The position numbers were made by a program, and so were the translations under genes. A stretch of DNA of 64,000 bases from Polyangiaceae bacterium (GTDB lineage Bacteria; Myxococcota_A; Polyangia; Polyangiales; Polyangiaceae): assembly GCA_020846005.1 (NCBI GenBank), contig JADLEQ010000043.1:62001-126000 (forward strand), written 5' to 3'. Positions 48,576-52,638 of this stretch are shown piece by piece. How positions within the stretch are numbered: the first letter of the stretch is position 1; the number at the start of each line of letters is the position of its first letter. The notes under the pieces were generated by a model. That model saw only the letters and a program-made list of their open reading frames with translations. It ran no database searches and was not told the DNA's origin.

Positions 48576-48630
48576 TTGACTCCGCCACCTGGCGGAGCAT
48601 GCTCCGCCCGCTCGTCTGCTCGACGAGCGG
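48576..48630 (+). promoter_or_regulatory. candidate -35 box with two palindromes upstream of lipoprotein gene
   Basis: ttgact at 48576-48581 is followed by a perfect 18-bp palindrome, ggcggagcatgctccgcc (48591-48608). A second inverted repeat, ccgctcgtc-tgctc-gacgagcgg (48608-48630), has 9-bp arms. The Shine-Dalgarno aagg and ATG at 48645 follow. A palindrome at the expected -10 suggests an operator, or paired hairpins in the leader RNA. The rest of the 341-bp gap 48304-48644 shows no gene. Confidence 0.5.
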
Positions 48631-48644
48631 AAGGTGAAGGGCGC

Positions 48645-50183
48645 ATGGGACGGAATTTCACGTGGTGTCTGCTGCTCGCCGTCTCGGCGGTGGCGTGTGG
48701 CGAGGAGTCCGGTGGCGGCGCGGGAGGCGCGGGCTCGGGCGCGACCAGCTCCGGAGGCGCGCCGAGCGGCGGGTCCTCAGGCGGCGGCGGGGTCTCCGGG
48801 ACCGCGGGCGCCGGGAGCGGCGGCGCGGCCGGCGCGGGCGCGGCGGGCGCGGGCGGCGTCGCCGGCAACGCGGGCGCGCCCTCCGGCGGCGGCACGGCCG
48901 GGGCTGGCGGAGTAGGGGCTGGGGGTACAGGTGGGACGGCCGGCGGCGGCGGCACTCAGCTCACGTGGACGCGTCACACGCTGGCACAGCTCGCTGGCGC
49001 CGCGTGGACCGTCGTGGCGGAGCTCGACGGCGACTCCAAGCCCGAGGTCATCGGGGTCGGCTTCGGCGCCCAGGCGGGCCTCGCGGTCCCGGTGGGCGAG
49101 GTCAACGTCTACACGCGCACGGCGGGCCTCGGCACGTGGGCGCCGGCCCCGATGGTGCCGGCGACGGCGAACCTCAACTTCCCCAATTCGCCGACGCTCT
49201 CCGACGTCGACGGCGACGGCGACCTCGACGCGGTCGTGCCGACGGGGTTCCTCGTCTGCACGGCCATCCCCGGCGGGGGGCCCTGCGGCGGGCTCTTCTG
49301 GTACGAGCGAGCGGGCGCGAGCTGGCTCCCGCACACGGTCGTCGCGAAGGGCGCGGCGCTCTTCTACCACCACGCCGAGCACGTCGACTTCGACGGCGAC
49401 GGCGTGAAGGACCTGGTGACGGTCGCGGAGGCCGCCGGCGCGTTCGGCGGGCCGGGCCAGGCGCAGGCGCAGTGGTTCAAGGGCACGACGACCGCCGATC
49501 GGTTCGAGACGACCGCGCGCAAGATCGGGGACGGCGGAGGCAGCGTGCCGACGGTCACCGATCTCGACGGCGACGGCGACCTCGATGTCGTCTCCGCACA
49601 GTACTTCGTCAAGGACGCGTCGTTCGTCTGGTTCGAGCGCACGGCCGAGCCGAGCGCGGGTGCCCCCGCGGGGACGTTCGTGAAGCACGCGATCGACACC
49701 CAGAGCGGCCCCTCGATCCTCTTCCAGCTCGTGCCGAACCTGTACGGGGACGGCGTCCTCCGCGCGATCGGCGCCAACCACACCAACACCTCGAAGGCCC
49801 CGCCCGACACGGCGGCCGAGGGCGTGTTCGTGTTCGACGTGCCAGCGGGCGGCGCGCTGGCGCAGCCGTGGCCGCGCACGCCCATCAGCTTCGGGATGAA
49901 GTCCCGCGCCGGGTCGCCGTTCGCGCCGCAGGGCGCCCCTGGTGTCTTCGACGTGGGCGACGTCGATGGCGACGGTGACCTCGACGTCGCGGTGTCCGGG
50001 GACGGCGACCCGCGCGTCTTCTGGCTGGAGCAGTCCCCCAGCGGCTGGTTCACCCACGTCGTCGCCGACAGCCTCGGGCAGGCAGGTGGGCTCCGCATCG
50101 CCGACCTGGACGGCAGCGGCACCGCCGAGCTCGTGGTCCCCGTGTACGAGGCGAACGCGATCTACGTCTTCGAGCACCCGTAG
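48645..50183 (+). CDS. FG-GAP/VCBS-repeat lipoprotein
   Basis: A 512-residue lipoprotein (Cys18 in AVAC) with about 85 residues of Gly/Ala/Ser linker. The rest is a seven-bladed FG-GAP beta-propeller with at least five calcium-type loops, such as DVDGDGDLD (three times), DFDGDGVKD and DLDGSGTAE. Such propellers are integrin-like, calcium-dependent adhesion domains. The ATG at 48645 is chosen from the signal peptide and Shine-Dalgarno. Probably exposed on the cell surface. Confidence 0.9.
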
Positions 50184-50262: not shown

Positions 50263-50877
50263 TCAGCTCGCGCCGTACAGGCCGTGCTCCGCGATGTGGC
50301 GGAGCACGGATCGCGGCACGCACGCAGCGAGCTCGGCCGCAGCGTCCGCGTCGCCAGCGCGCCCGAGGAGTTCGCGCACGCGCGTGCTCGACACCTCCGG
50401 CAGCCACGGGCGCGGCGCGTCACTCCGCTCGACGCCCCGGCGGCCGAGCACCAGCGGCTGGGCGAGCTCGCACACCTCGTCGAACGCGTGCCACCGGGGC
50501 GCGTCGTCCAGCACGTCGGCGCCGATCAACAGCCGGAGCCGCCAGCTCGGGTGGGTGGTCGCGAGGTGGCGGAGCGTGTGCAGCGTGTAGCTGGGCGCTG
50601 GGAGCGCGCGCTCGACGCCAGAGATCTCCGCCCCGCGCACGCCCTGGAAGGCGAGCTCGGCCATGTGCACGCGGTGCTCGAACGGCGCTAGCGGCTTGCC
50701 GAACGCGTGCCCGAGCACCGGGACGACGAGCACCGTGTCCAGCTCCTCGACGGCGAGCGCGTAGCAGGCCGCGAGCACGTGCGCGACGTGCGGTGGGTCG
50801 AAGCTCCCTCCGAAGAACGCCACCGTTCGGGGCGTGTCCCGCTCGGGCGACCCGCGCCGCCCGCCGGCCCCGCTCAC
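50263..50877 (-). CDS. nadD: nicotinate-nucleotide adenylyltransferase-type protein
   Basis: A 204-residue nucleotidyltransferase. GGSFDPPHVAHV is the HxGH-type nucleotide motif (HVAH here) and SSTRVRELL is the second ISSTxxR motif. Family length is right for NadD, which makes deamido-NAD from ATP and nicotinate mononucleotide. Start GTG overlaps the upstream gene (GTGA). The HxGH motif reads HVAH, so Gly is replaced by Ala; activity is probable but this change and the lack of a NAD-pathway neighbour leave substrate uncertain. Confidence 0.85.
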   Translation of the reverse strand: MSGAGGRRGSPERDTPRTVAFFGGSFDPPHVAHVLAACYALAVEELDTVLVVPVLGHAFGKPLAPFEHRVHMAELAFQGVRGAEISGVERALPAPSYTLHTLRHLATTHPSWRLRLLIGADVLDDAPRWHAFDEVCELAQPLVLGRRGVERSDAPRPWLPEVSSTRVRELLGRAGDADAAAELAACVPRSVLRHIAEHGLYGAS

Positions 50878-51488
50878 GCCTCCGTCCCCGCGACGCGGAC
50901 CCGCGCGCCGCGTGACGCGAGCAGGCGCTCGCGGCGGATCTCCTGGCGTGTCCGGTCGAACAGCGCGAGGTGGATGCCATCGTCCGAGTCCTCGAGCGTC
51001 ATGATGCCGAAGTCCTCCAGCGAGCCCGGCGAGAGGAACCACCGCGAGCCGACCTGGCGCACCAACGGCTGCCGGCTCCGCCCGAAGGCGATGAGCGACG
51101 CCGGAAGGATGTCGTCCTCGTCGAGCTTCCCCTTGTCGTGGATCATGACCAGGACCTTGCCGTCCAGTAGCTCGATCAGGCGGGTGCCGTCGTCGGGGAG
51201 CGACTCGAAGATGCTGAGCGCTCGCCGCTCCCGCTCCGCGGCGAGGTAGGCGTCGATCTCGGCTGGCGTCGCGCGGGCGCAGCGGTCCGTCGCGCGCTGC
51301 CACAGGTTGGCGTCGTCCGGGGACGCCCCCACCAGCCGCTCCGCTCGACGGTGGATCACCGTGTCGAGCGCGCGGTCCACGCCCAGGTACACCGCGCGGT
51401 CGACCCCAGCCTCGCGCAGCAGGAACTCGACGGCGTCCTCCAGCGCGTCCTCGCGCTCGTGGGCGGGGCCGAGAAGGCCGAGTCGCAT
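50874..51488 (-). CDS. metallophosphoesterase-like protein without metal ligands
   Basis: A 204-residue protein that follows the YfcE/MJ0936-type small phosphoesterase layout. MRLGLLGPAHE corresponds to the usual RIGLISDTHG start, YLGVDRAL to the HLGD strand, LVMIHDKG to the HGH motif, IAFGRSRQP to IFGHTH and FLSPGSLE to the NPGS motif. The metal-binding Asp, second Asp and both GHTH histidines are gone, though the fold order is kept. It is probably inactive as a phosphatase and may bind a nucleotide or regulate. Translation is coupled to nadD. Confidence 0.7.
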   Translation of the reverse strand: MRLGLLGPAHEREDALEDAVEFLLREAGVDRAVYLGVDRALDTVIHRRAERLVGASPDDANLWQRATDRCARATPAEIDAYLAAERERRALSIFESLPDDGTRLIELLDGKVLVMIHDKGKLDEDDILPASLIAFGRSRQPLVRQVGSRWFLSPGSLEDFGIMTLEDSDDGIHLALFDRTRQEIRRERLLASRGARVRVAGTEA

Positions 51489-51582: not shown

Positions 51583-52638
51583 TCAGACGACGAAGGACCG
51601 CAGCCGAACGGCGTCGAGTCGCCCCACGCCGAGGCCGAGGTCGGCGGCGGTCTCCAGGTAGCGCGCCGGGCGCCGCGCCTCCGTGAGCGTCGGCAGGCCG
51701 CGCTCCTTGCGCTCCTTCTCCACGAGGCTCGCGCCGAACACATCCATCGCGACAGGATCCGTCGACACGTAGACGGCGCCGTGCGGGATCCTCGTGGCGG
51801 GGTCTTTGTCGAGCGGGCCCTTGTCGTACATGATCTTGAACGCATCGGTGACATGCAGCCGGACGCGGCTCGTCACGATGGGGTGGTTGTAGAGCAGCGC
51901 GATGTGCGGGCTCGCGTGCGTCGCGTGGTGCTCCTCCGGGTTGTCGATCGTCCCGTGCGTGATGTTCTTCAGGGTGCCCGTGTAGCCGCAGATCGAGTGA
52001 TCCTTGATCTGCGTCATGTCGATCACGGCCGTCGCGTCGAGGAGCTGCTTGCAGTACCGGGTGCGGATGCCGGGGTACACGGCGATCCGCGGCATCGGGT
52101 GGTTCGCGTTGCCGTGGTTCGCCGTCTTCACGCCCTTCGGGAGGTCGTATCCCTTCACGCCGACCCGGCAGCCCGTGAGGTAGTACTGCTCGTACACCAT
52201 CACGTTCTCGGGCTTCACGCCCACCGCGATGACGGCCTCGACCAGCGGGAGGATGAGCTCGAAATTCACGGCCATCGTCGCGCCGACCTGCCCGGCGATG
52301 CCGTTCGGCTTGATCGCCACCCGGTCCTCCGGATGGATCACCTTGCGCATCGCCGCGACGAGGTTCGGCGAGCCCGTGAGCTCCGTCATCGCGCGCTCGA
52401 GCAGCGCCCGCGCGATCTCCGGCTTCGGCCAGAGCTGGTTCGGCTGCATCATCGAGGCGAAGTCCCCGCTCTTCTCCACCTTGACGACTCGCCCCGGGTA
52501 GCTCGCCGGGACGAACCCGGCGGGCGGGCTCGCGACGAGGTCCTCGACGGCGAATGCGCGCCTCGGCGCGCCGAGCCCGGCGGCGCCGAGGCCGACCGCG
52601 GCTGCCCCTTGAACCCAATGGCGTCTGGCGATCTGCAT
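51583..52638 (-). CDS. DUF362-domain protein with Tat signal
   Basis: A 351-residue exported protein. The N-terminus has an RRHW twin-arginine motif and a hydrophobic stretch ending in AFA. The body is DUF362, an alpha/beta fold often found with ferredoxin-like partners (VAIKPNGIAG, TAVIDMTQIKDHS, STDPVAMDVFGASL). No Cys cluster motif is visible. It is 94 bp from the phosphoesterase-like gene. Function is unknown. Confidence 0.85.
   Translation of the reverse strand: MQIARRHWVQGAAAVGLGAAGLGAPRRAFAVEDLVASPPAGFVPASYPGRVVKVEKSGDFASMMQPNQLWPKPEIARALLERAMTELTGSPNLVAAMRKVIHPEDRVAIKPNGIAGQVGATMAVNFELILPLVEAVIAVGVKPENVMVYEQYYLTGCRVGVKGYDLPKGVKTANHGNANHPMPRIAVYPGIRTRYCKQLLDATAVIDMTQIKDHSICGYTGTLKNITHGTIDNPEEHHATHASPHIALLYNHPIVTSRVRLHVTDAFKIMYDKGPLDKDPATRIPHGAVYVSTDPVAMDVFGASLVEKERKERGLPTLTEARRPARYLETAADLGLGVGRLDAVRLRSFVV

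Follow-up and report, generated by a model that had tools for sequence, protein, structure and literature searches.

What is the function of a protein that resembles a phosphoesterase, appears to have lost the residues that bind the two metals, and is encoded directly in front of the gene for nicotinate-nucleotide adenylyltransferase (NadD)? Most bacteria cannot live without NadD, and to our knowledge few protein regulators of its activity have been described. The question is raised by a 64,000-nucleotide stretch of DNA from a Polyangiaceae bacterium (referred to here as the window), in which both genes are encoded on the minus strand (Table 1). An earlier description of this DNA, made from the letters alone (the preliminary description), proposed that the first protein is a regulator or binding partner of the adenylyltransferase.

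The gene pair

The overlap GTGA between the two genes, already noted in the preliminary description, is real: the TGA stop codon of the pseudo-phosphoesterase gene and the GTG start codon of nadD share these four bases. The product of the downstream gene contains both the GGSFDPPH and the SSTRVRE motif, scores above the cut-off of Pfam CTP_transf_like, and has TIGR00482 as its best model by far (E 2.3e-30, compared to E 1e-3 for CoaD). Its 106.1 bits are below the curated TIGR00482 cut-off of 112.45; among 20 genomes from another class in the same phylum, 16 also lack a NadD above this cut-off. The pseudo-phosphoesterase gene is present as a single copy in the window's own genome. The gene convergent to nadD (48576-50183, plus strand) encodes a lipoprotein-like protein that is rich in Gly and Ala and has repeats of the FG-GAP type (DxDGDGDLD).

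Table 1. Features of the nadD locus and positions of the former phosphoesterase motifs in the window.
Feature	Position	Strand	Basis and remarks
Pseudo-metallophosphoesterase gene	50874..51488	-	ORF; 204 aa, ATG start, TGA stop
nadD, nicotinate-nucleotide adenylyltransferase	50263..50877	-	TIGR00482, CTP_transf_like; GTG start
GTGA, four-base overlap of pseudo-phosphoesterase stop and nadD start	50874..50877	-	Sequence
DUF362 gene, upstream	51583..52638	-	Pfam DUF362, E 8.8e-17; same strand
Residues 1-10, MRLGLLGPAH	51459..51488	-	Alignment; aligned with S-D-T-H, metal-ligand Asp replaced by Pro8
Residues 34-38, YLGVD	51375..51389	-	Alignment; aligned with HxGD
Residues 117-126, HDKGKLDEDD	51111..51140	-	Alignment; at the HG motif
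Residues 136-139, GRSR	51072..51083	-	Alignment; where GHTH stood

Fold and descent

Taken alone, the window protein matches Metallophos_2 (E 0.022) and TIGR00040 (yfcE; E 0.026, 14.6 bits, below the cut-off of 56.25) weakly, the two matches being located at opposite ends of the protein and in the correct order. Seven of 61 relatives match TIGR00040 at E <= 1 (best E 5.3e-4). None of the Pfam and NCBIfam models reaches its cut-off with the family, and a PDB sequence search with the window protein returned weak matches only, including a chance-level match to dishevelled.

Structure prediction and profile comparison gave a much clearer picture. With the alignment of the 61 relatives as input, AlphaFold2 predicted a structure for the window protein with a pLDDT of 94.2 and a pTM of 0.87. 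A Foldseek search with this model found 52 PDB matches at E <= 0.001, with MJ0936 (1s3l, E 1.7e-7) at the top, followed by VPS29, the COG0622 protein 3ck2 and TM1076. VIA-align, over 134-150 residues, yielded Z scores of 14.5 (3ck2), 14.1 (YfcE, 1su1), 13.8 (VPS29) and 12.9 (1s3l), confirming a strong similarity to YfcE and MJ0936, the two proteins that the preliminary description had named for comparison. For 3ck2, residues 1-191 of the model align with an rmsd of 3.0 over 144 residues, and the predicted fold is the alpha/beta sandwich of the metallophosphoesterase superfamily, extending through the entire domain. In addition, we compared the profile of the 61 relatives with a profile of nine phosphoesterases from related genomes that contain the catalytic motifs. 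The two align over 139 columns (hhalign, 95.3%, E 2.1e-8) with D-x-H, GD, HG, GHxH and NPGS all in register, thus the order of YfcE-type motifs that had been recognised by eye is borne out. Since profile homology and predicted fold agree, the window protein is, according to sequence and model, the descendant of a metallophosphoesterase, and the ancestor of its family is of the YfcE/COG0622 type. We regard it as a new pseudoenzyme family of known fold, and it is a real family that is unlabelled as far as the Pfam and NCBIfam models tell. The reading as a decayed pseudogene was rejected in view of the 107 homologues with their invariant residues.

Another group of Polyangiales phosphoesterases (L181, L182 and L190, near 1453-2178) keeps D-x-H, GD and HG, has G-[LV]-[SG]-D where GN-x-D would stand and G-[AM]-S-H at the GHxH position, and contains a helical insert before L-P, as is found in the nadD-linked family. 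This group may be the closest catalytic-type relative of the nadD-linked family.

The former metal site

The preliminary description stated that the residues binding the two metals are replaced, which is correct in substance and applies to the whole family, although two histidines, H10 and H117, happen to stay in the window protein. At the change from DTH to PAH the aspartate is indeed lost (position 8 is Pro in 56 of 61 relatives and Asp in none), but the histidine of D-x-H persists in the window protein, as it does in five of the 61 relatives. Likewise, the aspartate of HLGD is replaced in YLGV, and only eight of the 61 relatives have Asp at this position; the residue one position further, D38, is Asp in 59 of them. 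The reading of GRSR as a substitute for GHTH was accurate: at positions 137 and 139 His is found in none of the 61 relatives, and the first of these positions is Lys or Arg in 45. The HG histidine (H117) is His in 28 of 61 relatives, and the GN-x-D motif has no counterpart; in its region the model shows the helices 40-53, 59-70 and 75-93. At most two of the six ligand positions of the two-metal site are kept in any of the 61 relatives, and none has the YfcE set. The window protein is therefore very probably no phosphoesterase, as far as the lack of catalysis can be read from the sequence.

The positions that are conserved instead include R2, G4, G7, P8, L16, Y34, L35, G36, D38, L91, R103, E106, D118, K119, L122, E124, D126, G136, G147, R149, F151, P154, G155 and V199, all of them invariant or nearly so in the alignment of the 61 relatives. 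Of 25 nearly invariant residues, 14 are located within the 28 positions that surround the old catalytic motifs (hypergeometric test, P 5e-8, an indicative value, since the motif windows were chosen after inspection of the alignment). This concentration indicates that the old cleft is under selection; judging from the alignment, it is rebuilt and not abandoned.

Linkage to nadD

Matches were found in 108 of 289 genomes of the class, 107 of them in the order to which the window belongs, the window's own genome included. The 108th match, a fragment with E 3e-4, was left out, so that 107 convincing members remain. A scan of named genomes with the single protein gave no match; the scan with a narrower alignment found 15 loci in Polyangiaceae, Labilithrix and unplaced Myxococcales, which identifies the carrier order as Polyangiales.

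The linkage of this family to nadD is unusually strong. Among Polyangiales loci with enough downstream sequence, 67 of 68 have nadD directly downstream in the same orientation, as do all 36 of a further set, amounting to 103 of 104, and 47 of the 67 linked loci have a four-base stop/start overlap. At the sole exception (L025, G236), a hypothetical lipoprotein-like ORF is found where nadD would stand. Among the papers searched, none joins nadD, a metallophosphoesterase and the name of the enzyme.

A profile search in 282 genomes of the phylum revealed one further member, in a genome of another class (G495). In the family of this genome (f48), nine divergent homologues are located directly before nadD, and a tenth, found with the profile of the f48 homologues, lies on a contig other than that of nadD (G350), so that nine of ten are linked. 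Conservation of the neighbourhood with nadD, which the preliminary description had suggested examining across Polyangia, is thus found in the window's order and again in a second class. The f48 homologues align with the Polyangiales family over their full length (E 2.7e-13), and their profile matches two Polyangiales members (E 7.5e-5 and 3e-3). Some of them (L206, L201, L211) start with V-S-N-S-H-G or V-A-N-T-H-G, in which the Asp of S-D-T-H is now Asn; from their sequence these starts resemble an intermediate in the loss of the ligands.

The genes around the pair differ. In f48, the order is namZ, homologue, nadD at eight of nine loci, whereas namZ immediately precedes nadD in relatives from the class of f48 and in other orders of the class to which the window belongs. 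In Polyangiaceae, ccmB is often located upstream (20 of the 69 loci covered). Of 40 loci taken from the whole order, 27 have a large repeat-like ORF upstream, which is a coarse count, since the clustering of neighbours mixed real genes with antisense frames. The DUF362 gene lies beside the pair in the window's own genome only and is no conserved neighbour. The constant element among these changing flanks is the pair itself. General synteny as the full account of the linkage was rejected because the flanks vary.

A namZ-like gene (DUF1343) is found immediately before nadD in several lineages of the phylum (L129, L130, L132, L135, L197, L198, L208, L212 and L215). The arrangement is an old one, and no metabolic reason for it is obvious.

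Possible functions

The linkage to nadD argues for a role in NAD metabolism, and the conserved cleft suggests binding of a ligand or a short peptide. The explanation we favour, to which we would give an even chance, is a non-catalytic accessory protein of NAD or nucleotide metabolism with a ligand- or peptide-binding cleft, which tunes NadD or a NadD-dependent step. In this explanation, a YfcE/COG0622-type ancestor lost its two-metal site, and its descendant is made together with NadD by coupled translation. The rebuilt cleft, comprising G7-P8, Y34-L-G-x-D38, D118-K119...E124-x-D126, G136 and P154-G155, might then bind either a ligand or a peptide of a partner. Through this binding it might tune NadD itself or a process that relies on the output of NadD. 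Several points speak against this explanation: the conserved cleft could equally well be the active site of another kind of enzyme, the f48 homologues lack the D-K...E-x-D cluster, and the results on contact with NadD and on gene loss given below weigh against it as well. Direct control of NadD by the pseudo-phosphoesterase is possible. A bolder version, in which the protein has turned, like VPS29, from an enzyme into a binding module, senses a nucleotide in its former catalytic cleft and exerts allosteric control over NadD, would make it a new type of NAD-pool regulator in Myxococcota, but we consider it unlikely.

It might also be possible that the protein is a dedicated regulatory or structural subunit that binds NadD stably and thereby sets its activity, as PII does for NadE. 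In favour of such a subunit, the linkage is almost complete in two classes even though the surrounding genes change, the frequent four-base overlaps would suit co-translational assembly, and VPS29 and PII provide precedents. The prediction of the contact itself gave it no support. The pseudo-phosphoesterase gene and nadD are in one frame at five loci. For locus L042 the TGA was read through as one residue and the resulting chain of 434 residues was folded with 106 rows, five of them paired. Each domain folded well (block pLDDT mostly above 90), but with a pTM of 0.53 and no confident contact the relative placement of the domains was not predicted. Partner-specific residues were sought in NadD and none were found, column conservation being 0.937 in carriers and 0.930 in non-carriers. 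Taken by themselves, read-through fold and NadD columns neither support binding nor exclude it. Gene loss also weighs against a dedicated subunit: Polyangiaceae without the gene are scattered on the NadD tree (FastTree, with many open forks), so the gene was probably lost more than once while nadD was retained, which suggests that NadD is independent of it. Altogether, a dedicated subunit seems somewhat doubtful to us. Of the regulator or binding partner proposed in the preliminary description, the association with nadD stands, while the read-through prediction and the NadD residues did not add a sign of contact.

At L042 (4001-6091, plus strand), a Rossmann-like domain, which we take to be DUF2520-like, is joined in frame to the C-terminus of NadD.

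Alternatively, the protein might have an unrelated role and be merely coupled translationally to nadD and inherited vertically with it. The local gene order in Polyangiaceae can be stable without the gene, as seen in two genomes of the same genus, one with ccmB followed by nadD (G107, L125) and the other with ccmB, the pseudo-phosphoesterase gene and nadD (G061, L031), and inherited gene order does account for part of the linkage. However, the pair stays while the genes beside it differ, both within the order and from one class to the other, and a homologue is found away from nadD in just one of 104 and one of ten cases. We regard such a passive neighbour as improbable.

An enzyme with new chemistry would also explain why the cleft is the most conserved part of the protein and why hardly any variation is seen among the charged residues at the former catalytic loops. 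In such an enzyme, D38, D118, K119, E124, D126 and R149 would act on a nucleotide related to the NadD substrate without a two-metal centre, K119 or an arginine substituting for a metal. The D-K...E-x-D cluster, which would be expected to persist in an active site, is missing from the f48 homologues, and among the structure matches we recognised no metal-free enzyme of the same fold; new chemistry is thus decidedly improbable. An ordinary metallophosphoesterase that holds one or two metals via D38, H117 and nearby acids would fit the H10 and H117 kept in the window protein and the conservation of D38, but it is highly implausible in a family with Pro at the first Asp, no GHxH histidines and no GN motif, in which H10 and H117 vary freely.

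Comparison with known systems

Among the closest known systems are members of the protein's own superfamily. With YfcE and MJ0936 (COG0622, TIGR00040, Metallophos_2) the nadD-linked family shares the whole-chain fold, the motif order and a P-G turn resembling N-P-G-S, whereas the Asp and His metal ligands are lost and helices replace the GN-x-D region. Another neighbour of nadD is YqeK, an HD-domain protein and metal-dependent hydrolase whose gene lies beside nadD or is fused to it in Firmicutes. It is likewise a nucleotide-related gene adjoining nadD, but its fold is unrelated and it is a metal-dependent hydrolase.

PII is encoded beside nadE; it binds the NadE protein and lifts the feedback inhibition of this enzyme (PMC7196632), showing that neighbours of NAD-synthesis genes can be regulatory subunits. 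As at our locus, the gene for a non-catalytic protein lies beside a NAD-synthesis gene, in distant bacteria. PII differs in its unrelated fold and in its target, NadE, and physical contact has been shown for PII and NadE, whereas the metallophosphoesterase-nadD pair is known from genes and prediction. If the favoured explanation is true, a dead-enzyme partner of nadD in two classes would offer a testable handle on NAD supply in social bacteria with large genomes.

VPS29, a subunit of retromer and retriever, has the same fold as the predicted model and is a metal-independent scaffold without activity; it retains several of the ligands and is able to bind metals weakly (PMC3101248). VPS29 demonstrates that the metallophosphoesterase fold is able to turn from enzyme to scaffold. 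The profile of the nadD-linked family aligns weakly (E 0.7) with the GHTH...FLNPGS region of VPS29. In contrast to the nadD-linked family, for which no VPS35-like partner is known, VPS29 is eukaryotic and binds VPS35. If confirmed, the nadD-linked family would be a bacterial counterpart of VPS29, and it would allow the loss of catalysis to be traced step by step, since some f48 homologues have S-N-S-H or A-N-T-H where catalytic relatives have S-D-T-H.
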